Assembly (NCBI RefSeq): GCF_023006325.1
Contig: NZ_JAINDF010000006.1
Location: 124,001 to 188,000, forward strand
From: Kordiimonas marina
Lineage (GTDB): Bacteria > Pseudomonadota > Alphaproteobacteria > Sphingomonadales > Kordiimonadaceae
DNA length: 64,000 nt
Direction of reading: 5' to 3'
The first letter of the stretch is position 1; each line of letters opens with the position of its first letter. Under the pieces are notes generated by a model. The model saw nothing but the letters and a program-made list of their open reading frames with translations. It searched no databases and was not told the origin of the DNA. The translations under genes and the position numbers were made by a program. Below, one piece after another: positions 10,854-52,830 of the stretch.

Positions 10854-11477
10854 ATGCTCAAAAAGTTTGTGTTGCCGTTTATTGCCTGTACCGCCATCAG
10901 CCTTGGAGCCGGAGTTGGGGCCAGAACTGGGGCCTGGGCGGAAGATGCGCCGCTTTCCCCCGCCAACGTTATGGGCGACCAGCCCTACGAAAGCCCGAGC
11001 TGCGTGCAGGCCGACTATCATGAAATGGATTTCCTCAACGGAAGTTGGGCCATGAAGGTGCTGAAGGACGGCCGCTGGCACGCCGCGGGCTTTGCCGAGC
11101 AGAAGCCTGTCCTCGGCGGCTGCGCGGTGATGATGAGCGTCTCCTTCGCTGAGTGGGGCGACTATTACCGCGCACTCACCGGGCGGGATGGATTCGCCGC
11201 CATCCTGATCAGCAGCTACGATACCCGGGCCCACGACTGGCGCCAGCGCTGGATGACCGACATGGGCAGTATGGTTACGCTGATGCGCGGCCGTAAGTTC
11301 AAGGATGGCGCCCGTTTTGTCGGTCATGCGCCGGACAGCGCAGGCCCCGAGCTTCAGCGCCACGAATGGAAGGTCACGGGCGATAACACCCGCGAATTCA
11401 CCTTCGAACAGTCGCTGGACGGCGGCCAGCACTGGAGCGTGATCGGCAAGGTCCAGCTTATCCGCCGCGCGCCCTGA
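10854..11477 (+). CDS. Exported protein, DUF1579-like, function unknown
   Basis: A 207-aa protein with an N-terminal signal peptide (F-V-L-P-F-I-A-C-T-A-I-S-L-G-A-G-V-G-A, cleavage near A-W-A). The mature part starts a beta-rich domain at DFLNGSWAMKV and ends in a paired strand S-V-I-G-K-V-Q-L-I-R-R. The fold and the D-F-L-x-G-x-W motif recall DUF1579 and related calycin-like domains; this is a weak family resemblance only. The start has an excellent ribosome site (AAAGGGAGG, 5 bases away). No pathway is indicated by the neighbours. Confidence 0.75.
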   Translation: MLKKFVLPFIACTAISLGAGVGARTGAWAEDAPLSPANVMGDQPYESPSCVQADYHEMDFLNGSWAMKVLKDGRWHAAGFAEQKPVLGGCAVMMSVSFAEWGDYYRALTGRDGFAAILISSYDTRAHDWRQRWMTDMGSMVTLMRGRKFKDGARFVGHAPDSAGPELQRHEWKVTGDNTREFTFEQSLDGGQHWSVIGKVQLIRRAP

Positions 11478-11574
11478 GCCTTTTTGACAGAAATACTAAT
11501 AGCCCCGCCCATCTTGACGGCGGGGTCCTCCTGCGCCATATCGCTTTCGTCCCGAATAGGAGGATAGGGTCGAG

Positions 11575-12036
11575 ATGACAAAACCTGTGCTCGATGGCGC
11601 CCTGCGCCAGTTCATGTATGGCAAACTGCACCGCGTGACGGTAACCGGCGCCGAGCTGAATTATGTCGGCTCGATCACGGTGGACCCGGTGCTGCTGCGC
11701 GCGTCCGGCCTGATGCCCTATACGGCGGTTGATGTGGTCAACATCACGAACGGCGAACGCATCACCACCTATATCATCGAAGGCACCGAGGGTTCGGGCG
11801 TTATCTGCCTGAACGGCGCCGCTGCACATCAGTTCAGTAAAGGCGACCTCGCCATCATCATGGGCTATGAAGCCGTGCCGGCGTGCGACCTGCCGGGGCG
11901 GATTTCCCGCGCGGTGCATGTGGACAGCCAGAACCGTATCGTCTCAATCGATGAATATGTCACGCCGGGGCTCGACGCGCTCGGCCAGCCTGCGAATAAC
12001 CGCGAGAATGAGTGCTACGAGACCGTAGACACCTGA
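11575..12036 (+). CDS. panD: Aspartate 1-decarboxylase
   Basis: Pyruvoyl-dependent enzyme making beta-alanine for pantothenate, 153 aa. The self-processing site is visible in YVGSITVD (Gly-Ser cleavage, where Ser becomes the pyruvoyl group). It lies after the GKLHRVTVT strand that carries the conserved Lys, and before TNGERITTY and LNGAAAH. The C-terminus is about 25 residues longer than E. coli PanD and is hydrophilic. An AGGAGG ribosome site lies 11 bases upstream. It converges with xth. Together with ilvD in the same region it supplies pantothenate precursors, but there is no shared operon. Confidence 0.93.
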   Translation: MTKPVLDGALRQFMYGKLHRVTVTGAELNYVGSITVDPVLLRASGLMPYTAVDVVNITNGERITTYIIEGTEGSGVICLNGAAAHQFSKGDLAIIMGYEAVPACDLPGRISRAVHVDSQNRIVSIDEYVTPGLDALGQPANNRENECYETVDT

Positions 12037-12062
12037 GCGGGTGCCAATAGCCCAGGGGATGA

Positions 12063-12845
12063 TCAAGCCAGTTCGATCCACACCGGTGTGTGGTCGCTGG
12101 CTTTTTCCTTGCCCCTTGGCGTGCGGTCAACCTGCGCGTCCTGAAGCCGGTCAGCGGCTTGCGGCGACAGCATCAGATGGTCGATGCGGATACCGTTATC
12201 CTTCTGCCAGGCGCCTGCCTGATAGTCCCAGAAGGTGAAGGCCGGGCCCGCCGGTTTGATCTGGCGGAGGGCATCGAGATAGCCGAGATAGGTCAGCTCC
12301 CGTAGTTTGGCGCGGCTTTCCGGCTGGGTGAGGGCGTCGTCGACCCATGCGGCGGGGTTGTAGCAGTCCTCATCCTTGGGGATGACGTTATAGTCACCCG
12401 CCAGCACAATGGGTTGCTCGGTTTCCAGCAGGCGCTTCGCGTGGGCGACCAGACGGTCCATCCAGGCGAGCTTATAATCGAACTTCGGCCCCGGTTGCGG
12501 GTTGCCGTTCGGCAGGTAGATGGAGGCGATGCGCACACCCTGAACGGTGGCCTCAATATAACGGGCCTGCTCGTCCTCGGTTTCCTCACCGCCATCAAGC
12601 GCGGGCAGGCCGCGGCGGACGTCCTCGATCTTGTGTTTCGAGAAGATCGCGACACCGTTGAAACCTTTCTGGCCGTGGGTTTCCACGTTCCAGCCCTTGT
12701 CCTCAAACTCGAGGCGCGGGAAATTCTCGTCGACGCTCTTGATCTCCTGCAGGCAGGCGACGTCGGGGGAGAATTCTTCCAGCCATTCCAGAAGCCGGGG
12801 CAGCCGGGCCTTGACGCCATTGATGTTGAAAGTGGCGATTTTCAT
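12063..12845 (-). CDS. xth: Exodeoxyribonuclease III
   Basis: Mg-dependent AP endonuclease / 3'-5' exonuclease of base-excision repair, 260 aa. Catalytic motifs of the EEP superfamily are complete: TFNINGVKAR at the start, CLQEIKS (metal-binding Glu), YLPNGNP, LAGDYNVIP, and the C-terminal KASDHTPVWIEL. The gene lies 27 bases downstream of erpA on the same strand and is probably co-transcribed with it, a common alphaproteobacterial pairing. It is convergent with panD, with only 26 bases between stops and no clear terminator. Confidence 0.96.
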   Translation of the reverse strand: MKIATFNINGVKARLPRLLEWLEEFSPDVACLQEIKSVDENFPRLEFEDKGWNVETHGQKGFNGVAIFSKHKIEDVRRGLPALDGGEETEDEQARYIEATVQGVRIASIYLPNGNPQPGPKFDYKLAWMDRLVAHAKRLLETEQPIVLAGDYNVIPKDEDCYNPAAWVDDALTQPESRAKLRELTYLGYLDALRQIKPAGPAFTFWDYQAGAWQKDNGIRIDHLMLSPQAADRLQDAQVDRTPRGKEKASDHTPVWIELA

Positions 12846-40010: not shown

Positions 40011-40033
40011 CGCGTCAGCGCTGCTTGGTGAGC
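40011..40033. repeat. 23-bp direct repeat, proximal copy inside the GntR 3' end
   Basis: CGCGTCAGCGCTGCTT then G then GTGAGC. It covers the GntR stop codon and its last codons (L-T-K-Q-R). The partner copy is at 39638-39660. Confidence 0.85.
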
Positions 40034-40770
40034 GTGCGGACATAGTCCTTGCCCGGCATGGCCAGGTTGCCGGCCTCATCGCGCGTGTAGCGCTCCAGAA
40101 GCTCGGTCTGGGTCATGTAACCGGCACCGTCCCGGATATCCGCCTCGATCGCGGCCTTCAGGCCGAACGGGTTGCGGGTTTCGATCGCGCGCATGATCTC
40201 CACATGCCGGTCCGTGACATAGGAGGATTCGAGGTTCGCGAGCGCCAGCCGGTGCAACGGCCCAAGCTGGAGCCAGACCCGCTCGATCATCGGCAGGGTC
40301 ACGGGGTAGGGGTGCGAAGTATAAAGCGCGCGGTGGAAGGCCTGGTTGCCGAGGATGATGCCCTCGGGGTCCGGGCCTTCGAACGCCTTGTTCTGGTCTT
40401 CGTTGAGCTGCTTCAGCTCAGCCAGCTTTTCGTCGTTGATGTAAGGAAGCGCGCGGTCGGCCGCGTGGGTCTCAAGCACGATCCGGAGCTCCAGCAGCTC
40501 GGCCAGCCAGGCGGGGCTGAAGTCCGGCACCATGATGCGGCGGTTGGACTTGAGCTCCAGGGCGCCTTCGGAGGTCAGGCGGCGCAAGGCCTCCCGGACC
40601 GGCATGGCGCTGGTGCCCAGCATGTCGGCGATGCCGCGGATCGTGAGCGCGCGGCCCGGCTGGACCTGGCCTGACATGACGGCGAAGCGAAGGGCGCGGT
40701 ACACCCATTCCTGCGCGGTTTCACCAGTTTCCTGGCCCAGTTTGTCCAGATTAATGCCGCTGTGTTTATT
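40015..40770 (-). CDS. GntR family transcriptional regulator (FCD/FadR subfamily)
   Basis: DNA-binding regulator of about 251 aa. An N-terminal winged helix (YRALRFAVMSGQVQPGRALT, then L-G-T-S-A-M-P-V-R-E-A-L-R-R-L) is followed by an all-helical FCD ligand domain with the metal-type residues L-E-L-R-I-V-L-E-T-H-A-A, NQAFHRALYTSH, and D-R-H-V-E-I-M-R-A-I. The best start is the TTG at 40770, six to seven bases after GGAAGG; an upstream in-frame TTG at 40791 also exists. It is next to the antiporter and putrescine genes on the same strand, so it is the best local candidate regulator of that block. The palindromes at 49705 and 49850 are possible targets. Confidence 0.88.
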   Translation of the reverse strand, partial: NKHSGINLDKLGQETGETAQEWVYRALRFAVMSGQVQPGRALTIRGIADMLGTSAMPVREALRRLTSEGALELKSNRRIMVPDFSPAWLAELLELRIVLETHAADRALPYINDEKLAELKQLNEDQNKAFEGPDPEGIILGNQAFHRALYTSHPYPVTLPMIERVWLQLGPLHRLALANLESSYVTDRHVEIMRAIETRNPFGLKAAIEADIRDGAGYMTQTELLERYTRDEAGNLAMPGKDYVRTLTKQR

Positions 40771-40809
40771 CAACCGTCTACCTTCCCCCAACCCTCTGCG
40801 GGTCTCCGC

Positions 40810-42210
40810 TTACGCCAGCAGCCAGAAGCCCGTGAGTGCCAGAATGGCGGTAATCACGGCATAAGGCAACTGTGTCAGCGCGTGTTGGAGGGAAGTACAA
40901 CCACAACTGTGCGAGGTCAAGACCGTTGCATCGGCATAAAGGCAGGCGTGGCTGCCGAAGGTGCTGGCCGACAGGGTCGCGCCGATCACCAGCGGGATGT
41001 TGGCGTTGGTCTTGAGCGCAAGCTCGGCGATGACCGGCAGCGCGATCACGAACATGCCCCAACTGGAGCCGGTGCCGAACGCCACGAGGCCCATGATCGC
41101 GAAGATAATGAAGGGCAGGGTCTGCGCATTCATGTAAGGCAGCGCGAGCTCAAGCACATACTCAGTGAGGCCCAGCTGGCCGTTGATTTCCTTCAGCACA
41201 TAGGCCGCGAAAATGATGGCGAGCGGCTCGATCATGGTCCTGAAGCCGTCGAGCACCGTGTCGAACGCGTCATGATGGTCGAGGATACGAAGGCCAATGA
41301 TAGCGATCAGCGTCAGCGTCAGCGTCGTATAGATCGCGGGCAGGAATTCGAGGTTGAAATAGAGCGTGAAGCCGACAAGGCTGGCGATCGGCAGGATAAA
41401 CAGCCAGATGGAGCGGCGCCTGCCTTCGATCTCATCGATCGGGTGTTTCTCAGCCACCAGCTTGCCCTTGTGCGGCGGCACGCAGTGACCAGCATGGGCG
41501 CGGGCCTCGGCGGCTTTCATAGGGCCGATAAGCGGCAGTTTGCCAAGCGCCACCAGGGGCACAAGCGCGACCGCGAGCCAGGCGTAGAACATGTAGGGGA
41601 TGCCGCTGATATAGGCGTGCAGGCCACCGCCCGCAGGCGCCAGATGCACATCCTCGAGGAGCTTGCCGAAGAAGACTGCCCAGGTGGAGATCGGGATAAT
41701 CACGCTCACCGGGGCGGCGGTGGAATCGATCAGGTACGCCAGCATCTCGCGGGAGACCTTGTAGCGGTCGGTCAGGCGTTTCATGGTCGACCCGACGGCG
41801 ATGGCGTTGAGGTAATCATCCACGAAGACGGCGATACCCATGAGCCAGGTGGCGACAATGGCGCCGTTCCGGGAATGCACGCGCTTGGCCACCTTGTCCA
41901 TAAAGACGGTGACGGAGCCTGTTCGCACCAGAAGGCCGATCATCGCCCCCATGGCGCCGCAAACGAGCACGACCCAGGCGAGATCCTCATCCATGAGCGC
42001 GGCGAGCGTGGAGTTGGCGTAGGCGACGATGGCGTCGGTCGGGCCCATATGGTTGATCACCGCCAGGATGATCTGGCCGATCACGGCACCGAACAGCAGC
42101 GCCTCGATCGGGCGATGGATGGTGACCGCGAGCACGAGCACCGAAAGCGTCGGCACAACCGACCAGAAGCCGAAATGCGCGGCGGCCGCCGCAACCGTAG
42201 AAGCATCCAT
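40810..42210 (-). CDS. NhaC-family Na+/H+ antiporter-like transporter
   Basis: A 466-aa inner-membrane transporter with 10-12 helices. Family marks: MGIAVFVDDYLNAIAVGSTM (a broken-helix acidic DD motif), STAAPVSVIIPISTWAVFFG, and the repeat-related FGTGSSWGMFVIALP with TFGSHACLYADATVLTS near the C-terminus. This superfamily includes Na+/H+ antiporters and amino-acid or basic-solute exchangers. Position between the GntR gene and the Puu operon suggests a polyamine-, GABA- or amino-acid-linked substrate, which the sequence alone cannot prove. The terminator at 42281 separates it from the upstream operon, so it has its own promoter. Confidence 0.85.
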   Translation of the reverse strand: MDASTVAAAAAHFGFWSVVPTLSVLVLAVTIHRPIEALLFGAVIGQIILAVINHMGPTDAIVAYANSTLAALMDEDLAWVVLVCGAMGAMIGLLVRTGSVTVFMDKVAKRVHSRNGAIVATWLMGIAVFVDDYLNAIAVGSTMKRLTDRYKVSREMLAYLIDSTAAPVSVIIPISTWAVFFGKLLEDVHLAPAGGGLHAYISGIPYMFYAWLAVALVPLVALGKLPLIGPMKAAEARAHAGHCVPPHKGKLVAEKHPIDEIEGRRRSIWLFILPIASLVGFTLYFNLEFLPAIYTTLTLTLIAIIGLRILDHHDAFDTVLDGFRTMIEPLAIIFAAYVLKEINGQLGLTEYVLELALPYMNAQTLPFIIFAIMGLVAFGTGSSWGMFVIALPVIAELALKTNANIPLVIGATLSASTFGSHACLYADATVLTSHSCGCTSLQHALTQLPYAVITAILALTGFWLLA

Positions 42211-42280: not shown

Positions 42281-42309
42281 GAAAAAAGGTGCAGCCCTAA
42301 AGCTGCACC
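42281..42309 (-). terminator. Terminator of the putrescine operon (stop codon inside the loop)
   Basis: On the - strand GGTGCAGC pairs with GCTGCACC (42302-42309 and 42288-42295), and the loop TTTAGG contains the aldehyde dehydrogenase stop codon. TTTTTTC follows. The 3' end of the gene itself thus forms the terminator stem. Confidence 0.88.
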
Positions 42310-43793
42310 CACGTGGTTTTGAGATTGGTATATTTTTCGATCGCGTGCAACGATTTGTCACGGCCGAAACCGGACTGCTTATAGCCGCCGAACGGGATGC
42401 TCATGTCGCCGGTCGGGTCCCAGCAGTTGACCCAGACGGTCCCCGCCTGGATCGCGCGCGCCATGCGGTGCGCCCGGCTGATATTCTGGCTCCATACGGC
42501 GCCTGCGAGGCCGTAGATCGTGTTGTTGGCGATCTTGATGGCTTCTTCTTCGCCGTCGAACTCGATCACCGCGAGCACGGGGCCGAAGATTTCCTCACAC
42601 GCGATGGTCATGTCGCACGTCACACCGTCATAGATGGTCGGCTCGATGAAGAAACCGCCCGAGCTCACGCGCGCGGCAGCACCGCCCGCGACCAGCTTGG
42701 CGCCTTCGTTCGCGGCGCTTTCGATATAGCGCAGCACACGGCGGTACTGGTCGGAATCGACGATGGCACCCAGGGTGGTGGCGGGGTCAAGCGGATCACC
42801 CGGTACCCATTCCTTGGTGGCGGCGACGAGCTTTTCGAAGAATTCATCCTTCACCTTGCGGTCGACCAACAGGCGGGAGCCCGCGGTGCAGACCTCACCC
42901 TGGTTGAAGAAGATGGCGCCCGCAGCCGCGTGGGCGGCGGCGTCCAGGTCTTCACAGTCGTCCATGATGATGTGCGGGCTTTTGCCGCCGCACTCAAGCG
43001 CCACGCGCTTCAGGTTCGACTGGCCGGAATATTCCATGAAATATTTGCCAACCTGGGTCGAGCCGGTGAAGGCGATGCCGTCGACATCCATATGGAGGCC
43101 GAGCGCCTTGCCCGCGGTGTGGCCGAGGCCGGGCACCACGTTGAACACGCCCGCCGGGATTCCGGCCTCAAGGGCGATTTCAGCGAGGCGGAGTGCGGTC
43201 AGCGGCGACTGTTCGGCGGGCTTCAGGATCACCGAGTTCCCGGCGGCAAGCGCGGGGCCCAGTTTCCAGCAGGCCATCATCAGCGGGAAGTTCCACGGAA
43301 CCACCGCGGCGACAACGCCGATCGGTTCGCGGGTGACCATGGCCACCGAGCTCGGGTCCGTGGGCGCGATTTCGTCCATCACCTTGTCACAGGCTTCACC
43401 GTACCAGCGCATGGCGCGGATACAGCCGGGAAGATCGATCGCGATGGCGTCGGTGATCGGCTTGCCCATGTCGGTGACTTCGAGAACAGCCAGCTCCTCG
43501 GCGTGCTTTTCAATCATGCGGCTGAAATTGACGAGAATTTCACCGCGCTTGGTCGGGTGCATGTCCGCCCAGACGCCACTGTTGAAGGCTTTCCGGGCCG
43601 AGGCGACGGCGCGGTCGACATCTTCGGTGTCACACGAGGCGATCTCGGCGATCACCTTGCCGGTGGCCGGGTTGATGGTCTTGAAAGTGGCGCCGGAGGC
43701 GGCATCTTCCCATTTGCCATGGATGAAAGCTTTGGTGCGGATGCCAGCCTTCGCCTGCACCGCCTGCCAATAGGCGAGAGTCTTTTCGGTCAT
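42297..43793 (-). CDS. puuC: Gamma-glutamyl-gamma-aminobutyraldehyde dehydrogenase (PuuC-like)
   Basis: NAD(P)-dependent aldehyde dehydrogenase, 498 aa. Motifs: PWNFPLMMACWKLGPALAAG, GSTQVGKYFMEYSG, catalytic Glu in A-L-E-C-G-G-K-S-P, catalytic Cys in NQGEVCTAGSR, and PFGGYKQSGFGRDKS. The start and length match PuuC (M-x-x-x-T-L-A-Y-W). Next to PuuA, PuuB and PuuD its substrate is probably gamma-glutamyl-aminobutyraldehyde, giving gamma-glutamyl-GABA. Ribosome site AAGGAG. It is last in the - strand operon. Confidence 0.9.
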   Translation of the reverse strand: MTEKTLAYWQAVQAKAGIRTKAFIHGKWEDAASGATFKTINPATGKVIAEIASCDTEDVDRAVASARKAFNSGVWADMHPTKRGEILVNFSRMIEKHAEELAVLEVTDMGKPITDAIAIDLPGCIRAMRWYGEACDKVMDEIAPTDPSSVAMVTREPIGVVAAVVPWNFPLMMACWKLGPALAAGNSVILKPAEQSPLTALRLAEIALEAGIPAGVFNVVPGLGHTAGKALGLHMDVDGIAFTGSTQVGKYFMEYSGQSNLKRVALECGGKSPHIIMDDCEDLDAAAHAAAGAIFFNQGEVCTAGSRLLVDRKVKDEFFEKLVAATKEWVPGDPLDPATTLGAIVDSDQYRRVLRYIESAANEGAKLVAGGAAARVSSGGFFIEPTIYDGVTCDMTIACEEIFGPVLAVIEFDGEEEAIKIANNTIYGLAGAVWSQNISRAHRMARAIQAGTVWVNCWDPTGDMSIPFGGYKQSGFGRDKSLHAIEKYTNLKTTWVQL

Positions 43794-43806
43794 TGAGGGA
43801 TACTCC

Positions 43807-45177
43807 TTACAGGCGGCCGATTTCTTTGGCAGTGAGGTCCAGGGCGCCCCTGGCCTTGTCCACCAGCTCATCGATTTCATCGTTGGTGATGACCAAGGGC
43901 GGGCACAGGATCATGCTGTCGCCGACCGAGCGCATGACGAGCCCGGTGTTGAAGCAATGCTCACGGCATTTGAAGCCGACATCAAGCGCCGGGTCGAATG
44001 CCTGTTTGGTTTCCTTGTCAGCGACGATTTCGATACCGCCGAGCATCCCGAGACCGCGGGTCTGGCCCACGAGCGGATGGTCATTCAGCGTGGCGAGCTG
44101 CTTCTGGAAATAGTCGATCCGCGGCTGTGCGCGTTCGCCTACCAGACCGTCCCGCTCCATGATTTCCACGTTCTTGAGCGCGACGGCACAAGCAACCGGG
44201 TGGCCGGAATAGGTGAAGCCGTGCGCCATTTCCTCATCACCCGAAGCGATGGCGTCGGCGATATCGCCACCGAGCGCGACTGCGGACAGCGGTACATAGC
44301 CGGACGACATGCCCTTGGCCATGGTCATCACATCGGGCGTGATGCCGAAATACTGGCTGCCAAACCATTCGCCGGTACGGCCCCAGCCGGTGATGACTTC
44401 ATCGGCCCACAGAAGCACGCCATATTTGCGGCAGACGGCTTCGATTTTCGGCCAGTAGCCAGCGGGCGGCGGCAACATGCCGCCAGCGCCCATGACGGGT
44501 TCGCCAACGAAGGCCGCGACATTTTCCGGGCCGAGTTCGAGGATCTTGTCCTCAAGCGCCTTGACGCAGACGTCGGTGAATTCTTCCTCACTGAGGCCTT
44601 CGCCGTATTTGTAATGTTCAGGCGTCGGGCCGATATGGTGGATGCCGGGCAGCGGGAGGTCGAACTGCGGATGCATACCGGTCAGGCCCGAAAGCGAGGC
44701 GCCAACGGTGGTGGAACCATGATAGGCGCGTTCGCGGGCAATGAACTGCTTGCGCTGAGGCTGGCCCTTGAGGTTCCAGTAATATTTGATCAGCTTGTAG
44801 GCGCTGTCGACCGCTTCGGAACCTGAGCAGGCGAACAGGACTTGCGAGATGCCTTCAGGCGCCTTTTCGCACACTTTGGCCGCCATTTCGGTGGCATAGG
44901 GGTGCGAGGTCATGAAGAACAGATTGTAGTAGCTGAGCGTCCGCATGGCTTCGGTCGCGGCTTCTACCAGTTCCTCATTGCCATAGCCGACCTGGGTACA
45001 CCAAAGGCCGGACATGGCGTCCAGGATCTTGTTGCCTTCGGAATCTTCCAGATAAATGCCCTTGGCGCTGGTGATCATCCGGGGGCCACGCGCCCGGAGA
45101 ACCGGGTGCGTGGTGAATGGGTGCAGGTGGTGCGCAGAATCCTGCGCTTGCCACGACAGAGTACGGTTGGAAAGCAT
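43807..45177 (-). CDS. Class III aminotransferase (putrescine/GABA type, SpuC-like)
   Basis: PLP-dependent omega-aminotransferase, 456 aa. Cofactor and substrate motifs: L-F-A-C-S-G-S-E-A-V-D-S-A, R-A-Y-H-G-S-T-T-V-G-A-S, the W-A-D-E-V-I-T-G-W-G-R-T-G aspartate motif, and the PLP lysine in MAKGMSSGYVPLSAV. In this setting it could remove the amino group of GABA (to succinate semialdehyde for GabD) or of putrescine with pyruvate as acceptor. Both reactions are known in this subfamily, and the sequence does not decide. It is 13 bases upstream of puuC. Confidence 0.88.
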   Translation of the reverse strand: MLSNRTLSWQAQDSAHHLHPFTTHPVLRARGPRMITSAKGIYLEDSEGNKILDAMSGLWCTQVGYGNEELVEAATEAMRTLSYYNLFFMTSHPYATEMAAKVCEKAPEGISQVLFACSGSEAVDSAYKLIKYYWNLKGQPQRKQFIARERAYHGSTTVGASLSGLTGMHPQFDLPLPGIHHIGPTPEHYKYGEGLSEEEFTDVCVKALEDKILELGPENVAAFVGEPVMGAGGMLPPPAGYWPKIEAVCRKYGVLLWADEVITGWGRTGEWFGSQYFGITPDVMTMAKGMSSGYVPLSAVALGGDIADAIASGDEEMAHGFTYSGHPVACAVALKNVEIMERDGLVGERAQPRIDYFQKQLATLNDHPLVGQTRGLGMLGGIEIVADKETKQAFDPALDVGFKCREHCFNTGLVMRSVGDSMILCPPLVITNDEIDELVDKARGALDLTAKEIGRL

Positions 45178-45232: not shown

Positions 45233-46594
45233 TTAGACGGACAGCATCAGGTATTTCTTTTCCCAGGGGTTCAGGACGGAGGAATAGTTCTCATATTCCA
45301 TTTCCTTGACCATGAGATAGGTTTCGACGAAGCCCTGACCGAGCACTTCAATGAGCGGCTCGCAGTTGCGCATTTTCTGGATACCGTCCAGGAAGTGGCC
45401 GGGCAGCGCGCGGCTGCGGGCTTCGTAGGCCGAGCCCTTGAATTCGGGCGACGGCTTCAGGCCTTCCTTCATACCGAGGTAACCGCAGGCAAGCGAGGTC
45501 GCGAGCGCGAAATACGGGTTCACGTCCGACCCGGCAATCCGGTTTTCCACGCGGCGTGCAGCCTTCGGACCCGCAGGCAGGCGCAGGCCAACGGAGCGGT
45601 TTTCCCGGCCCCAGTGCGTGTTGGTCGGCGAGGACATGCCAGACGAGAAACGACGGTAGCTGTTCGGATAGGGCGCAATCAGCGGGATGGCGTGGTGCAT
45701 GTATTTCTGCAGGCCCGCGATGTGGCTCATGAACAGGTCGGAATCCGAGCCATCTTCATTGGCGAAGATATTTTCCCCGGTTTTCATGTCACAGACCGAC
45801 TGGTGGATATGCATGGCGCTGCCGAAATTGTCGGAGTAGGGGCTGGCCATGAAGGTCGCGAACATATTGTGCCGGATCGCCACCTGCCGGATGATGCGCT
45901 TGAACAGGAACGACTGGTCGGCAACGTTGAGGGCCGGGCCGTGGATGACGTTGAATTCGAACTGCGCCGGGCCCGCTTCGTGGATCAGCGTGTCCACGTT
46001 GATGTTCTGGGCTTCGCAGCTGTCGTAAACTTCGTCGAAATAGGGCGCGAATTCATCGAGGCTGTCGATCGAATAAGGGGCCGAGCCGATGTCACGGCGG
46101 CCCGATTGACCAACAGGCGCGATCGGGTTGGCTTCGACGTTGTCCTGCCGGTCGATAAGGTAGAATTCGAATTCCGGCGCCACGATCGGCTGCCAGCCTT
46201 CTGCTTCATAAAGGGCGAGTACGCGCTTCAGGATCTGACGCGGGGCGAACTCAACCGGCTCGCCGCCTTCCAGTTCGGAATCGCAGATGACAGCGGCTGT
46301 CGGTTCCGGCTGCCACGGTGTGGTACACACAGTGTCCAGGTCCGGCATCAGGATGACGTCGCGGTCGATTTCCTGCAGATATTCGTTGATGGCGTAATCG
46401 CCATGAATGGTCATGCCGAACACTGTTTCCGGCATCCGCAGGCCCCGAGTTTTCAGGCCTTCGATGAATTTGACGCGGGGCATGGATTTGCCGCGGGCAA
46501 TGCCTGCGAGGTCCGCCACCATACATTCGATATCATCGATGTTTTTTTCTTTCAGCCAGGTATCCAGCTCTTCGATGCGCTTTGCATCATACAT
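45233..46594 (-). CDS. puuA: Gamma-glutamylputrescine synthetase (glutamine-synthetase family)
   Basis: ATP-dependent ligase joining glutamate to putrescine, 453 aa. Glutamine-synthetase fold motifs: EFEFYLIDRQD, HEAGPAQFEFN, the ATP-binding AMHIHQSVCD, and NRSVGLRLPAGP before R-V-E-N-R-I-A-G. The short N-terminal domain and no adenylylation-site loop of housekeeping GlnA (N-L-Y-D-L-P) point to the PuuA/SpuI-type group; context with PuuB, PuuC and PuuD agrees. An alternative is another gamma-glutamyl-amine ligase. It lies 20 bases after puuD. Confidence 0.9.
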   Translation of the reverse strand: MYDAKRIEELDTWLKEKNIDDIECMVADLAGIARGKSMPRVKFIEGLKTRGLRMPETVFGMTIHGDYAINEYLQEIDRDVILMPDLDTVCTTPWQPEPTAAVICDSELEGGEPVEFAPRQILKRVLALYEAEGWQPIVAPEFEFYLIDRQDNVEANPIAPVGQSGRRDIGSAPYSIDSLDEFAPYFDEVYDSCEAQNINVDTLIHEAGPAQFEFNVIHGPALNVADQSFLFKRIIRQVAIRHNMFATFMASPYSDNFGSAMHIHQSVCDMKTGENIFANEDGSDSDLFMSHIAGLQKYMHHAIPLIAPYPNSYRRFSSGMSSPTNTHWGRENRSVGLRLPAGPKAARRVENRIAGSDVNPYFALATSLACGYLGMKEGLKPSPEFKGSAYEARSRALPGHFLDGIQKMRNCEPLIEVLGQGFVETYLMVKEMEYENYSSVLNPWEKKYLMLSV

Positions 46595-46614: not shown

Positions 46615-47394
46615 TTACTGGGCGCTGTCCTTCTCTTGGTTTTTTTGGGCTTTGGCCCTTTGGTTTTCGCGCACGGCATTTCCGAACGCTTGAAAAATCT
46701 TTGTCGATTGCGGGTTGTCCCAAGCTTTCCATTCCGGATGCCACTGGACCGCAAGCGCGAATGCCTTGGCGTCTTCGACCGAAACCGCCTCAACGGTACC
46801 GTCGTCGGCCAGCGCTTCCACCTTCAGCCCCGGTGCGACATCGCGGATGGCCTGGGCATGGACGGTGTTGACCATGAACTCCTTGTCGCCGGTTACGGTT
46901 TCGAGGAGGCCACCATCCATCACGGTAACGGCATGGGCGGGGCCATATTGCACCTCAACCGGTGCGTCCTTGTCCTCCCGGTGGTCGAACCGGCCATCGA
47001 TTTCATGGACGCGCGGGTAAAGCGTACCGCCAAGCGCAACGTTCATCTCCTGCAGCCCCCGGCAGATACCGAGGACAGGCACACCCGCTTCCAGGATCGC
47101 GGAGACGAGGGGGAGGGTGTTCTTGTCCCGTGCCGGGTCTTCATGTTCGGTCGCCGGTGCTGGTGCCTCGCCATAATGGTGGCGCTGGATGTTGCTGTAG
47201 CCGCCGGTCATCAGGACGCCGTCGGCAAGCGCGAGGATTTCCTCACGCGCCAGCGGTTCGTCGAGCGCCGGGATCAGGACCGGGGTGACATCGGCGACGC
47301 GGACGAGCGCCTGGACATATTTGTCCCCAACCTGATGGTAGACATGCGGGCCGCTTTTAGCGGTATCGCAAACAATGGCAACGACAGGTTTCAT
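46615..47394 (-). CDS. puuD: Gamma-glutamyl-gamma-aminobutyrate hydrolase
   Basis: Class I glutamine-amidotransferase-type hydrolase, 259 aa, releasing GABA and glutamate from gamma-glutamyl-GABA. Nucleophile Cys111 sits in VLGICRGLQEMNVALGG; the catalytic H-P-E follows in VQWHPEWKAWD. The T-G-G-Y-S-N-I-Q motif near residue 63 and the stand-alone domain fit PuuD. Its ATG overlaps by four bases the stop of the upstream membrane-protein gene, so the two are translationally coupled. Confidence 0.92.
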   Translation of the reverse strand: MKPVVAIVCDTAKSGPHVYHQVGDKYVQALVRVADVTPVLIPALDEPLAREEILALADGVLMTGGYSNIQRHHYGEAPAPATEHEDPARDKNTLPLVSAILEAGVPVLGICRGLQEMNVALGGTLYPRVHEIDGRFDHREDKDAPVEVQYGPAHAVTVMDGGLLETVTGDKEFMVNTVHAQAIRDVAPGLKVEALADDGTVEAVSVEDAKAFALAVQWHPEWKAWDNPQSTKIFQAFGNAVRENQRAKAQKNQEKDSAQ

Positions 47395-48287
47395 GATACC
47401 GCTCCGTCAGCATGCGCCACGCGGGGCGAAGCCTGTTCCATGGAATGTTCCCTTTCTTCCTCTTCGAGGTCGGCCTCATGCCATTTGAACAGGTTCATCT
47501 CGATGAAGATGAAGGCGATGAGCCACAGAAGCGCGTCCCAGAAATCAATAAGTGCCCCCAGCATAATCCAGTAAAAACAAGCAACTGCCAGCGTAGTGTA
47601 GCTGAGAATCTTGATAAATACATTGATCCGGTAAAGCTTCCGGGTCAATTCCCCTTCAAGCTGGAGCATGACATCCACCTGCAGGACAACGACGACCAGC
47701 AGCCAGGCAGCGGAGTTGACCGTGTCGGTCACGGCCAGCCGGTGCATCCGCGTAAGCGTCTCATGGTCGGCGAGAATGCTGACATTCGGGTTAACATACA
47801 TCTGGGTCGCGGGCAGCATGTGGCAATTGTTGGCCGTGAGCGCGGTATAGTCATCAATATCAAGCGCATAGGACATGGCGTGACCGACATACTGGCAGGC
47901 ATCGCCGATGACGGGGGCGAAGCCATACGTCATCATTGCCCGGTCGAAATAGCCCTTGAAGGCCAGAAGCAGGAAAGCATAGCAGACGACAGTGGCGATG
48001 CTGATCGCCCACTTGAGCGGTCCCTTCAGCTTGTCATCCGGGATGATGTAGGTTTCCAGCTCGAAAATCAGGAGAAGCGTCAGCCACGCCATGGAATCGA
48101 TTGAGGTGGCGAAGGCGTCGCTGAGTTCCTCAAGCGGCAGGCCGTCACGGAACGTATAGCTTGCGGCGATGAAGTCCTCGCGCAGGAAGTAGATAAAGTT
48201 GATGAAGATCAGCAGATAAATGCCGTACTTGAAGCCTTGGAAAAGGCTTTCCTTCTTCATCCCCAGAAACAGATTTGACGCACTCAT
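47391..48287 (-). CDS. Six-helix membrane protein of the putrescine operon, unknown function
   Basis: A 298-aa integral membrane protein that I do not recognise. About six spans: residues 17-37, 64-83, 91-111, 190-209, 225-245 and 247-266. A 75-residue loop between spans 3 and 4 holds two cysteines (D-A-C-Q-Y-V-G-H and N-N-C-H-M-L-P) and many acidic and aromatic residues. The C-terminal tail is highly acidic (E-A-D-L-E-E-E-E-R-E). It lies between puuB and puuD and overlaps the puuD start (ATGA), so it is made in step with the pathway. A transport, sensing or oxidase-docking role is possible; none is shown. Confidence 0.8.
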   Translation of the reverse strand: MSASNLFLGMKKESLFQGFKYGIYLLIFINFIYFLREDFIAASYTFRDGLPLEELSDAFATSIDSMAWLTLLLIFELETYIIPDDKLKGPLKWAISIATVVCYAFLLLAFKGYFDRAMMTYGFAPVIGDACQYVGHAMSYALDIDDYTALTANNCHMLPATQMYVNPNVSILADHETLTRMHRLAVTDTVNSAAWLLVVVVLQVDVMLQLEGELTRKLYRINVFIKILSYTTLAVACFYWIMLGALIDFWDALLWLIAFIFIEMNLFKWHEADLEEEEREHSMEQASPRVAHADGAVS

Positions 48288-48353: not shown

Positions 48354-49643
48354 TTAGATTCCCAGCTTGTCGCGCATGGAATACCACCAGCAACCAAGGG
48401 TGCTGAGAGGTACGCTAAGCGTTTGTCCGCCCGGGAAGCTTCTGGCCGGCATGCCGGCAAAAATATCGAAGGCACTTGCATCGCCGTGGATGGCATGGGC
48501 CAGCACACGCCCCATCATGTGGGTGCTCGTGACGCCATGACCGCTGTAGCCGTGGGCGAAATAGGTGTTTCCGCCAAGGCGTCCGACGTGGGGCAGGCGC
48601 GACCAGGTCAGCGCGATATTGCCCTGCCAGCCGTATTCCACCTTGATGCCGCGCATGAAGGGGAACAGCTTTTCCATGTTGGGGCGCAGGGCCTTTTCGA
48701 CGTCGGCCACATCCTGGCCGCCATAGACCGTGCCGCCGCCGAACAGCAGGCGCTTGTCAGCGGTCAGGCGGAAATAGTCGAGCACATAGTTGGCATCCTC
48801 GACGCATTTATCGGTCGGCAGAAGCGCGTTCGCCGTGGCGTCGTCGAGGGTTTCCGTGACGATGATTTGCGTACTGGCCGGCAGGATTTTGGGGTACAAT
48901 TCCTTCACGGTCTTACCGAGATAGGCGTTGCCGGCCAGCACGACATAACGGGCAGTCACCGACCCGTTTTCCGTATGAACCACAGGGTTCGTGCGCACCC
49001 AATCGACGTCGGTTACGCGGGTTTGTTCGTAAATGGTGGCATCCAGGCTTTCGGCCGCGGCGGCTTCGCCCTGCGCCAGGTTAAGCGGATGAATATGGCC
49101 GCCATTATGGTCGAGCCAGCCACCGGCATAGACATCGGTGCCGACATGGTCGCGAATCGCGTTTTTGTCCAGAAGGTCGATACCGTCACGGCCGCGCTGC
49201 TTCCACATGTCGATGGTGTCGGCGATATCGCGCACCTGTTTGTTCGTGTAAGCGGCGAGGACGGAGCCGTGCTTGAGGTCGCAGTCGATGCTGTAGCGTT
49301 CGGCCAGCTCGCGGATGACGTTGCCGCCTTCGAGCGCCAGGTCTGCAAGTGCCTTGGCGCCCTCACGCCCGACGGTGTGTTCGATATAGTCGATCTCGCG
49401 GCTGAAGCCGTTGATGATCTGGCCACCGTTCCGGCCCGATGCCCCCCAGCCGACTCTGGCCGCCTCGAGAATCACCACCCGGTAGCCGAGTTCGGCGAGC
49501 GTGAGGCCGGTCACGAGCCCGGTAAAGCCGGCGCCGATGATGCAGACATCGGTGCTGACATCGCCCTTAAGGCTAGGGCGGGCGGGGGTCGCGTGTGCGC
49601 TGGCAGCATAGTAAGAGCCAGTATGATCAATCTGTTGCTTCAA
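48354..49643 (-). CDS. puuB: Gamma-glutamylputrescine oxidase (PuuB-like FAD oxidoreductase), copy 1
   Basis: FAD-dependent amine oxidase of about 429 aa, oxidising gamma-glutamylputrescine to the aldehyde with release of ammonia and peroxide. The dinucleotide fold VCIIGAGFTGLVTGLTLAE, then GWGASGRNGGQIINGF, and the late GYSGHGVTSTHMMGRVLA motif define the DAO/PuuB group. Start uncertain: TTG at 49643 gives the family N-terminus K-Q-Q-x-x-H-T-x-S-Y-Y-A-A-S; a GTG at 49712 would add 23 atypical residues and lies inside the operator-like palindrome. No ATG fits. It is the first gene of the - strand operon. Confidence 0.88.
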   Translation of the reverse strand: MKQQIDHTGSYYAASAHATPARPSLKGDVSTDVCIIGAGFTGLVTGLTLAELGYRVVILEAARVGWGASGRNGGQIINGFSREIDYIEHTVGREGAKALADLALEGGNVIRELAERYSIDCDLKHGSVLAAYTNKQVRDIADTIDMWKQRGRDGIDLLDKNAIRDHVGTDVYAGGWLDHNGGHIHPLNLAQGEAAAAESLDATIYEQTRVTDVDWVRTNPVVHTENGSVTARYVVLAGNAYLGKTVKELYPKILPASTQIIVTETLDDATANALLPTDKCVEDANYVLDYFRLTADKRLLFGGGTVYGGQDVADVEKALRPNMEKLFPFMRGIKVEYGWQGNIALTWSRLPHVGRLGGNTYFAHGYSGHGVTSTHMMGRVLAHAIHGDASAFDIFAGMPARSFPGGQTLSVPLSTLGCWWYSMRDKLGI

Positions 49644-49973
49644 GATAACACCGTAAAAATTAGTGATGCAGTAATCGGCATTTGGCCGCTGTATTTCAAA
49701 TAAAGTGATCACATTTTATCGGCGGCGTCAAGGGGGCTTGTTGCGAGATTGTGAAGCTATATGCGGCCAAAAGTGGCCATGTGTGAGCAATGCTCTTTAA
49801 TATCTATGTAAATTTTCTGCGCCGCGCTGGTTGACATCATTGTAACATTGTGATCACATTACCGCAACGCAATGGGCTGTCGTAGCCGCCAATTTGACCT
49901 AAACTCGCGGTCGTCGACACGATCGTGTCTGGGTGGTCGAATGCGGCCGGTCCAATGTTACGTGGGGAATAGT
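49644..49973. promoter_or_regulatory. Divergent puuB/gabD control region
   Basis: This 330-base AT-rich gap holds two mirror-image signals. On +: TTGACA (49831-49836), 17 bases, TCACAT (49854-49859). On -: TTGACG (49731-49726), 17 bases, TCACTT (49708-49703). In both, the palindrome GTGATCAC (49850-49857 and 49705-49712) begins 13 bases after the -35-like hexamer and overlaps the -10 place. Also present are GACACGATCGTGTC (49916-49929, perfect palindrome) in the gabD leader, and GGCCA-AAAG-TGGCC near 49760. No binding protein is known; the GntR gene at 40015 is the local candidate. Confidence 0.65.
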
Positions 49974-51428
49974 ATGAAACTGGTGGATAGTGCCCTTCTC
50001 AGGGACAAAGGTTATATTAATGGTGCGTGGACGGCCTCAGGAGGCGGTGCCACGTTCGATGTGCGTAATCCGGCAACGGGTGATGTGGTGGCGACGCTGC
50101 CGGATCAGGGCCTGGCGGAAACCAAGGCTGCGATTGCGGCTGCCGAAGCGGCTTTCGGTCCCTGGAAGGCCAAGCTCGCCAAGGAGCGCAGTGCGATTCT
50201 GCGCCGTTGGTTCAACCTGATCATGGAAAACCAGGAAGACCTGGCACAGATACTGACCGCTGAAATGGGCAAGCCGATCGCGGAAGCGCGCGGTGAAATC
50301 GCCTATGGCGCCAGCTTCATCGAATGGTTCGCTGAAGAGGGCAAACGCGTTTATGGTGACGTTATCCCGCAGCACCAGGGCGACAAGCGAATCGTCGTGA
50401 TCAAGCAGCCGATCGGCGTTGTCGCGGCCATTACCCCGTGGAACTTCCCGAACGCCATGATTACCCGCAAGGTGGCGCCTGCCATGGCTGTGGGTTGCCC
50501 GGTTGTTGTGAAGCCTGCCGCTGAAACGCCGCTGTCGGCGCTCGCGCTCGCTGAACTGGCTGAACGCGCGGGTGTCCCCAAAGGTGTGTTCAACGTGGTT
50601 GCCGGCACCAATGCCCGCGAAATCGGCGGTGAGCTGTGCGCGAACCAGACCGTGCGCAAGCTGACCTTTACGGGCTCGACCCCGGTCGGCAAGCTTCTGA
50701 TGCGCCAGTGTTCGGACGATATCAAGAAAGTCTCGCTTGAGCTGGGTGGCAACGCGCCCTTCATCGTGTTCGACGATGCCGACCTCGATGCCGCGATTGA
50801 CGGTGCGATGGCATCGAAATACCGCAATTCCGGCCAGACCTGTGTCTGCGCGAACCGCATGTATGTTCAGGCGGGCGTTTATGATGCCTTCGTCGAGAAG
50901 CTCGCGGTTGCCGTGAAGGCGATGAAAGTAGGCAACGGCGCCGAGGACGGTGTCGTGCAAGGCCCGCTGATCAGCGCCAAAGCGGTCGAAAAGGTCGAAG
51001 ACCATATCGCCGATGCGCTTTCGAAAGGCGCCGAACTGGTCCTGGGCGGCAAGCGGCATGATCTCGGCGGCAGCTTCTTCGAGCCCACGCTTCTGAAGAA
51101 TGTCACCCGGGACATGAAAGTCGCGCGTGAGGAAACCTTCGGTCCGGTCGCGCCTGTCTTCAAGTTCGAGGACGAAGCCGATGTGATCCAACAGGCGAAC
51201 GATACCGAGTTTGGCCTGGCGTCCTATTTCTATGCCCGTGACCTGTCGCGCGTCTGGCGCGTAGCCGAGGCGCTCGAGTACGGCATGGTCGGTATCAACA
51301 CCGGCATCCTGTCGACCGAAGTGGCGCCGTTTGGCGGCGTGAAGCAGTCCGGTCTCGGCCGGGAAGGTTCCCGCTACGGCATCGAAGATTATGTCGAGAT
51401 CAAATATCTCTGCATGGGCGGGATATAA
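49974..51428 (+). CDS. gabD: Succinate-semialdehyde dehydrogenase (GabD-like)
   Basis: NAD(P)-dependent aldehyde dehydrogenase, 484 aa, oxidising succinate semialdehyde to succinate. GabD hallmarks: G-Y-I-N-G-A-W, PWNFPNAMITRKVAPAMAVG, the F-T-G-S-T-P-V-G-K-L-L-M-R-Q motif, catalytic Glu in S-L-E-L-G-G-N-A-P, Cys in NSGQTCVCANR, and PFGGVKQSGLGREGSRYG. It completes the route from putrescine through GABA to succinate. ATG 49974 is preceded by GGGGAA; the open frame extends upstream without a better start. Confidence 0.93.
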   Translation: MKLVDSALLRDKGYINGAWTASGGGATFDVRNPATGDVVATLPDQGLAETKAAIAAAEAAFGPWKAKLAKERSAILRRWFNLIMENQEDLAQILTAEMGKPIAEARGEIAYGASFIEWFAEEGKRVYGDVIPQHQGDKRIVVIKQPIGVVAAITPWNFPNAMITRKVAPAMAVGCPVVVKPAAETPLSALALAELAERAGVPKGVFNVVAGTNAREIGGELCANQTVRKLTFTGSTPVGKLLMRQCSDDIKKVSLELGGNAPFIVFDDADLDAAIDGAMASKYRNSGQTCVCANRMYVQAGVYDAFVEKLAVAVKAMKVGNGAEDGVVQGPLISAKAVEKVEDHIADALSKGAELVLGGKRHDLGGSFFEPTLLKNVTRDMKVAREETFGPVAPVFKFEDEADVIQQANDTEFGLASYFYARDLSRVWRVAEALEYGMVGINTGILSTEVAPFGGVKQSGLGREGSRYGIEDYVEIKYLCMGGI

Positions 51429-51516
51429 GCATTCAGGGCAGGGGCGCCAGCACCCGCGTTTCCGCTGACGCCCCTGCAGTATTAGATAAGAAACACTAGA
51501 TAACTATCGGATTTTT
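51429..51516 (+). other. gabD-puuB2 spacer with hairpin
   Basis: GCAGGGGCG (51438-51446) pairs with CGCCCCTGC (51469-51477), 9 bp perfect with a 22-base loop and no T-run. It may attenuate or stabilise the transcript between gabD and the second oxidase. Confidence 0.4.
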
Positions 51517-52830
51517 ATGCGTATTCGTGACTCCATTCACACCGATCAGCTGCCGCCCAGCTATTATGCGGCGACCTGTAACGACACGGCTGACTTTCCG
51601 CGCCTTGAAGGCAATATCAAGGTCGACGTGTGCGTGGTTGGCGGCGGTTTTACCGGCGTTGCCACGGCGCTTCACCTGGCGGAAGCAGGCTATGATGTCG
51701 CGCTGGTGGAGCAGAACAAGATCGGCTGGGGCGCGTCCGGCAGGAACGGTGGACAGATCATCGGCGGTTATGGCCAATCCATGTCCGACATGGCGAAGAT
51801 CAACAAGTCCTTCGGCAAGAAGAATGTCCAGGCGGTGCTCGATATGGGCGTCGAATGCGTGGATATCATCCGCGACTGGGTAGAGAAATACGCTATCGAT
51901 TGCGACCTGACCTGGGGCTATTTCGATGCCGCGATGAAGCCGTCCGACATGGACTATCTTCTGGGTGCGATGGACACCATGCAGAAGCACGGCTACCCGC
52001 ACGAACAGCGCGTGATCGGCCAGGATGAAGTGAAGTCCATCGTTGGGTCCGACAAATATATCGGCGGCGTCGTCAATATGGGCTGGGGCCATGCCCATGT
52101 GCTCAATCTCGTCCGCGGCGAAGCCCGCGCGGCGGAAAAGCTCGGCGCCCGCATCTATGAAGATGCCCGTGTCAGCAGCATCGATATCCAGGACGATCAA
52201 ACCATCGTCAATATGGATACCTGCCGCGTGACCGCGAACCATGTGGTGCTTGCGGGCAATGCTTATCTCGGCCATCTGGTGCCGAAGCTGGCATCCCGAG
52301 TGATCCCGGCGGGCAGCTATATCATCGCGACCGAGCCGCTTTCCGAGGAATTGGCCGACAAAATCATGCCCAAGCGCTACGCCGTGTGCGACCAGCGCTG
52401 GGCGCTTGACTATTTCCGCATGAGCGCGGATCGGCGCATGTTGTTCGGTGGCCTCGCGACCTATTCGGGCCGTCACCCGAGCGATATCGTCGCTGCGGTG
52501 CGGCCCAACATGCTCAAGGTATTCCCGGAACTTGAAAGTGCCGAGATCACCCACGCCTGGGGCGGCTATATGGGCATCGGCCTCAACCGTATTCCGCAGC
52601 TTGGCCGGATCGCGCCGAAGGTTTATTATGCTCAGGCCTATTCGGGCCATGGCGTGGCGCCAAGCCATATGTCGGGCCGCCTGATTGCCGAGGCGATCGG
52701 CGGGAAGACCGACCGCTTCGATATCATGGTCGGCGTCAAGCATCCGCCGTTCCCGGGAGGCCGGATGTTCCGGCAGCCGATCCTGGCGGTGGGCATGGCT
52801 TATTATCGTCTTAAGGATGCATGGGGCTGA
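51517..52830 (+). CDS. PuuB-like FAD oxidoreductase, copy 2
   Basis: 437 aa. The FAD fold is VCVVGGGFTGVATALHLAE, then GWGASGRNGGQIIGGYGQ and AYSGHGVAPSHMSGRLIAE, the same architecture as the copy at 48354 but clearly diverged (for example G-G-Y-G-Q instead of I-N-G-F after the GG-Q-I). The N-terminus P-P-S-Y-Y-A-A-T matches PuuB. It could act on gamma-glutamylputrescine or on a related gamma-glutamyl amine such as glutamylated cadaverine or spermidine. Weak ribosome site. It follows gabD by 88 bases on the same strand. Confidence 0.85.
   Translation: MRIRDSIHTDQLPPSYYAATCNDTADFPRLEGNIKVDVCVVGGGFTGVATALHLAEAGYDVALVEQNKIGWGASGRNGGQIIGGYGQSMSDMAKINKSFGKKNVQAVLDMGVECVDIIRDWVEKYAIDCDLTWGYFDAAMKPSDMDYLLGAMDTMQKHGYPHEQRVIGQDEVKSIVGSDKYIGGVVNMGWGHAHVLNLVRGEARAAEKLGARIYEDARVSSIDIQDDQTIVNMDTCRVTANHVVLAGNAYLGHLVPKLASRVIPAGSYIIATEPLSEELADKIMPKRYAVCDQRWALDYFRMSADRRMLFGGLATYSGRHPSDIVAAVRPNMLKVFPELESAEITHAWGGYMGIGLNRIPQLGRIAPKVYYAQAYSGHGVAPSHMSGRLIAEAIGGKTDRFDIMVGVKHPPFPGGRMFRQPILAVGMAYYRLKDAWG

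Follow-up and report, generated by a model that had tools for sequence, protein, structure and literature searches.

The known putrescine repressors, PuuR of E. coli and PauR of Pseudomonas, are XRE-cupin proteins (PMC7901475). In the FadR subfamily of GntR regulators, characterised by an FCD domain, the arginine at position 28 of the helix-turn-helix (HTH) has been paired with the G/C of a TKGT/ACMA box; putrescine and polyamines receive no mention in the main text of that study (PMC4494728). Here we analyse a window of 64,000 nucleotides (the whole stretch of DNA under study) from Kordiimonas marina, in which a puu locus ends in a GntR/FCD gene and each of its two divergent promoters carries the palindrome GTGATCAC.

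Organisation of the puu Locus

The left operon runs on the minus strand, with gaps that are mostly short or overlapping. It opens with a puuB-like FAD oxidase (DAO; 48354-49712; Pfam match) and continues through a 298-aa probable membrane protein with no Pfam or NCBIfam match (47391-48287), a puuD-like gamma-glutamyl-GABA hydrolase (46615-47394), a puuA-like gamma-glutamylputrescine synthetase of the GlnA fold (45233-46594), a spuC-like class III aminotransferase (43807-45177), a puuC-like aldehyde dehydrogenase (42297-43796) and an NhaC-family transporter (40810-42210), the last five identified by Pfam/NCBIfam matches, to the GntR/FCD gene (40015-40791). The right operon, on the plus strand, starts with a gabD-like succinate-semialdehyde dehydrogenase (49974-51428; SSADH subfamily above cut-off), followed by a second puuB-like FAD oxidase (51517-52830; Pfam/NCBIfam matches).

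Homologues of puuA, puuB, puuC and puuD thus stand together, by best match and synteny, as expected of a Puu pathway locus. PuuA, PuuC and PuuD do not reach their NCBIfam cut-offs, and for the puuB-like oxidases the general DAO family is the only match; because several enzymes fall short of these cut-offs, we infer putrescine as the pathway substrate, a reading that the site before potFGHI-like genes described below supports. Most puu operons that were examined retain the 298-aa protein, which may be a new component of the pathway. In several relatives an additional puuA-like gene separates gabD from the second puuB; the source genome has none there (51428-51517).

The regulator combines an N-terminal GntR winged HTH (PF00392, 56.5 bits against a cut-off of 27) with a C-terminal FCD effector domain (PF07729, 64.6 bits against 24.3), and its fold is settled at the level of these Pfam profiles. 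Its best NCBIfam match, PRK11414, which we take to be McbR, reaches 90.1 bits, whereas the curated threshold of that family is as high as 225.

Paired Palindromes on the Divergent Promoters

The intergenic region between the puuB-like operon (minus strand, from 49712 down to 40015) and the gabD-like operon (plus strand, from about 49974) contains two GTGATCAC palindromes, mirror-placed 145 bp apart. On the rightward arm, the -35-like box TTGACA (49831-49836, plus strand) is followed after 13 nt by predicted operator 2 (49850-49857, within acattGTGATCACatta), which lies in the promoter of the gabD operon. On the leftward arm, TTGACG (49731-49726, minus strand) is likewise followed after 13 nt by predicted operator 1 (49712-49705, within taaaGTGATCACatttt), in the promoter of the puuB-gntR operon. 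Both operators are given no strand. The inferred -10 regions overlap them: facing puuB, TCACTT (N17) or CACTTT (N18) at 49702-49708 on the minus strand overlaps operator 1, and facing gabD, TCACAT (N17) or CACATT (N18) at 49854-49860 on the plus strand overlaps operator 2. Re-reading of the sequence places both palindromes and both TTGAC boxes where the preliminary description had put them. The GTG start of the puuB ORF (49712) falls within operator 1, so the real start is probably further downstream and the ORF drawn too long.

The bare octamer is common, with 66 copies genome-wide and three in the window. A genome-wide pattern search for TTGAC-N14-GTGATCAC returned exactly two matches in 3.68 Mb, both in the puuB/gabD region. 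Under an order-1 model of the intergenic region, 0.005 octamers are expected there, and the mirrored two-promoter arrangement is expected about 2e-11 times, in agreement with the earlier judgement that it would hardly arise by chance. What exceeds chance is the combination of octamer, -35-like box, mirror symmetry and conservation, not the octamer alone.

A site for CRP/FNR or another global regulator, or a mere chance match, would be a different way of reading the palindromes, since TGTGA and TCACA resemble CRP half-sites. The CRP site TGTGA-N6-TCACA is ruled out: as had been remarked before, the half-sites touch (N0, read in the sequence) instead of standing 6 bp apart. The restriction of the exact TTGAC-N14-GTGATCAC arrangement to this locus and the way in which the sites track gntR speak against a global regulator, and chance is excluded by the conservation and enrichment reported below, so that we regard the probability of any of these explanations as negligible.

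Conservation of the Predicted Operators

Six relatives (G001, G005, G007, G011, G022 and G029) have puuB orthologues that are 73-81% identical, and all six keep both palindromes and both TTGAC boxes. In the alignment of these genomes with the source genome, all 26 motif columns are invariant (TTGAC of both boxes included), as against 13 of the 154 other columns; because of this difference the conservation, as judged from the alignment, is that of a footprint and not a mere effect of the closeness of the genomes. The set was extended to 14 Kordiimonadales-type genomes by adding G008, G024, G047 and four named genomes. Both palindromes are intact in 14 of 14 genomes, operator 1 being invariant. 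Among the 28 operators, TTGAC starts 19 nt before the palindrome in 23 and 18 nt before it in four, and is missing in one. The alignment of relatives that the preliminary description had proposed thus bears out its palindromes, with TTGAC at 18-19 nt in 27 of 28 cases.

These data also bear on the -10 hexamer, which had been read at N17 (TCACAT/TCACTT). It may lie one base downstream (CACATT/CACTTT, N18), because the four operators with 18-nt spacing read CACAAT where the others mostly read CACATT or CACTTT, and because the last T of the N18 hexamer is present in 27 of 28 operators. The N17 register carries a TGn element (TGA-TCACAT), which speaks in its favour.

The sequence around and between the motif parts varies freely, and the distance between the two sites ranges from 106 to 156 bp across the 14 genomes. 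Since the spacing between TTGAC and operator holds at 18-19 nt over this range, each operator looks tied to its own promoter and not to its partner, and the two sites look independent. The earlier suggestion that identical geometry points to joint action is therefore not supported. A DNA loop through which both sites act jointly would find some encouragement in the distance of 145-147 bp kept by seven of the 14 genomes, and pairs 23 bp apart in Oceanospirillales hint at cooperative contacts, but the variable inter-site distance beside a steady promoter spacing argues against it, as does the description, in the FadR subfamily, of double sites that stand apart, one close to each operon (PMC4494728). 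Binding of the same GntR/FCD protein as an activator, which the weak -10 hexamers could need, is countered by the fact that operators placed over the spacer and -10 normally repress. We consider either variant unlikely.

Linkage of the Sites to gntR Homologues

Every genome with paired sites has a close orthologue of gntR (about 60-86% identical) in its puu locus, except G007, whose contig ends before the gntR position. More distant homologues (34-40% identical) occur in puu loci of G003, which belongs to the same genus, and of other families of the order; these loci hold two to five A/T-flanked copies, several directly before gntR. Six control genomes have puu genes without gntR beside them. 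The A/T-flanked site is absent from this region in five; the sixth, G006, has one, which counts against the GntR reading. In G047 a single puu cluster contains two paralogues of the GntR/FCD gene (L132:3150-3848 and 11384-12121), with 38% and 60% identity to that of the window, and the same operator lies near both.

Scanning of named genomes yielded 80 loci with gntR homologues, 68 of the Arg52 type and 12 with Asn, Gln or His at position 52; they come from Kordiimonadales, Oceanospirillales, Telmatospirillum, Plasticicumulans, Thiothrix, Rhizobiales and others. In the Arg52 loci, which span Alpha- and Gammaproteobacteria, 165 A/T-flanked GTGATCAC sites were observed against 1.6 expected, distributed over 63 of the 68 loci; in the other five, no A/T-flanked site was found nearby, a further point against the GntR reading. 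The copies adjoin gntR and homologues of spuC, puuA, puuC and potF, and often lie 45-160 nt upstream of gntR itself. The conservation of both sites and this linkage across two classes support the earlier proposal that one regulator serves both operons.

Furthermore, TTGAC precedes the operator in the distant loci as well, by 16 nt at 27 sites and by 19 nt at 17, against 0.27 expected per position; because of this excess, placement on the core promoter looks like the rule for this regulator. Tandem operators 23 bp (15 cases) or 14 bp apart (seven cases) were seen in L159-L229, mostly Oceanospirillales, upstream of gntR and neighbouring genes, an arrangement that suggests cooperative or overlapping binding.

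Covariation of Residue 52 with the Predicted Operator

All 12 homologues with Asn, Gln or His at position 52 come from Rhizobiales. A/T-flanked GTGATCAC is absent from the loci of all 12, and upstream of gntR in 11 of them stands TTGATCAA, ATGATCAA or TTGATCAT instead; these cases belong mostly to one clade, so that the change counts as having happened once or twice and not twelve times. A second, separately drawn set of genomes agrees: TTTGATCAAA accompanies a distant Asn52 homologue, and several Arg52 homologues have TGTGATCACA. No A/T-flanked site was found near the Arg52 homologues of L241, L244, L248, L249 and L252, again a point against the GntR reading. Arg52 aligns with Arg35 of E. coli FadR, which, by counting along the FadR sequence, corresponds to position 28 of the HTH in the numbering of Suvorova et al. 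2015 (PMC4494728). Arg52 is thus likely to be a DNA-contacting residue that covaries with the outer G of the operator, and the replacement of Arg52 by Asn, Gln or His, which goes with a change from G to T at that base, would represent a natural specificity switch. To our judgement, this joint change is the strongest sequence evidence that the GntR/FCD protein reads GTGATCAC. Together with the linkage to gntR and the sites before gntR, it strongly supports the gene at 40015, which the preliminary description had named as the nearest candidate.

The same observations weigh on the idea that a PuuR/PauR-type XRE-cupin repressor reads the palindromes, as in E. coli and Pseudomonas, and that gntR is linked to them by accident. 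In those bacteria PuuR or PauR is known to control the pathway (PMC7901475), and the source genome does contain one PuuR-like gene (32% identical, G000 C11:474809). This gene, however, adjoins an omega-aminotransferase gene away from the puu locus; searches with E. coli PuuR detected no homologue (E up to 1e-6) in G007, G011, G022, G029, G043 and G053, which keep the sites (G007 and G053 being 80-85% complete); and the sites go together with gntR and with Arg52 in its product. We therefore hold control by a PuuR homologue to be very improbable. The PuuR-like gene itself (C11:474809-475333, L236) probably encodes another amine regulator.

Further Sites in the Source Genome

A third site precedes a group of genes that match PotF, PotG and PotI best (L092:7131-7138; G000 C20:366130-366137), facing away from a PTR2/MFS transporter gene. 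On the potF strand it reads TTGTAG-N17-CACATT, with the -35-like TTGTAG one base closer. Because the same operator precedes these genes, the GntR/FCD regulator probably controls potFGHI elsewhere in the genome as well. Two more GTGATCAC copies, 135 bp apart (L090:9565 and L090:9700; G000 C19:455564 and 455699), lie upstream or in the neighbourhood of a predicted amidohydrolase gene, a homologue of which belongs to the puu cluster in G042 and G052.

Discussion

In conclusion, the explanation that best fits these data, with a probability that we put at roughly 0.85, is that GTGATCAC is a GntR/FCD operator and that the protein represses both divergent promoters, regulates its own gene and is released by a compound of the pathway. 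Specifically, one dimer of the protein encoded at 40015-40791 would occupy each palindrome, within the consensus wwwTGTGATCACAww. Within its own promoter, each palindrome follows the -35 box, precedes the presumed start point and overlaps the -10 region, so that a bound dimer should block RNA polymerase; since the left operon ends with gntR, the protein would also repress its own expression. The repressor is presumably released when an amine or intermediate of the pathway (putrescine, gamma-glutamyl-putrescine or GABA) occupies its FCD domain, which would induce the two catabolic operons and, probably, the potFGHI importer.

We found no matching description of a GntR-type putrescine regulator in the open-access literature, and the literal motif occurs, among the matches listed, in primers and unrelated sequences only. 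As far as these open-access searches reach, the novelty lies in the regulon itself, in the operator and in the natural switch of specificity. It is likely that they belong to a GntR/FCD regulon of ancient origin, not described before, which serves the breakdown and uptake of polyamines across Alpha- and Gammaproteobacteria, uses an atypical GT-N4-AC operator placed over core promoters and includes a switch at Arg52. The operator definition is now good enough for predicting regulons from sequence, and the switch between Arg52 and the operator base offers a direct test of DNA choice by FCD regulators.

In mechanistic terms, this is an ordinary FCD-type GntR system. It resembles the FadR-subfamily repressors in its GntR HTH and FCD domain, in its A/T-rich palindrome, in having two distinct sites between divergent operons, one close to each of them, and in the pairing of an arginine at the FadR-35 position with an operator G/C (PMC4494728). 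It differs in spacing, a point that tells against the GntR reading: the predicted operator TTGT-GATC-ACAA is palindromic and A/T-flanked, and TGTGATCACA has GT-N4-AC, whereas the TKGT/ACMA boxes of the subfamily usually follow GT-N2/3-AC (PMC4494728). The nearest solved structure is that of E. coli McbR (YncC; PDB 4p9f, E=4e-34), which controls different genes. Compared with PuuR and PauR, the proposed regulator would likewise be a local, autoregulated repressor of the gamma-glutamylated putrescine pathway and of transport, but the XRE-cupin family is unrelated to GntR/FCD, which makes this a non-orthologous solution to the same task. Polyamines are presented in a passage of PMC8437039 as thought to be an important part of marine dissolved organic matter, and in many Alpha- and Gammaproteobacteria, many of them marine, a different protein family appears to do the job of PuuR and PauR.
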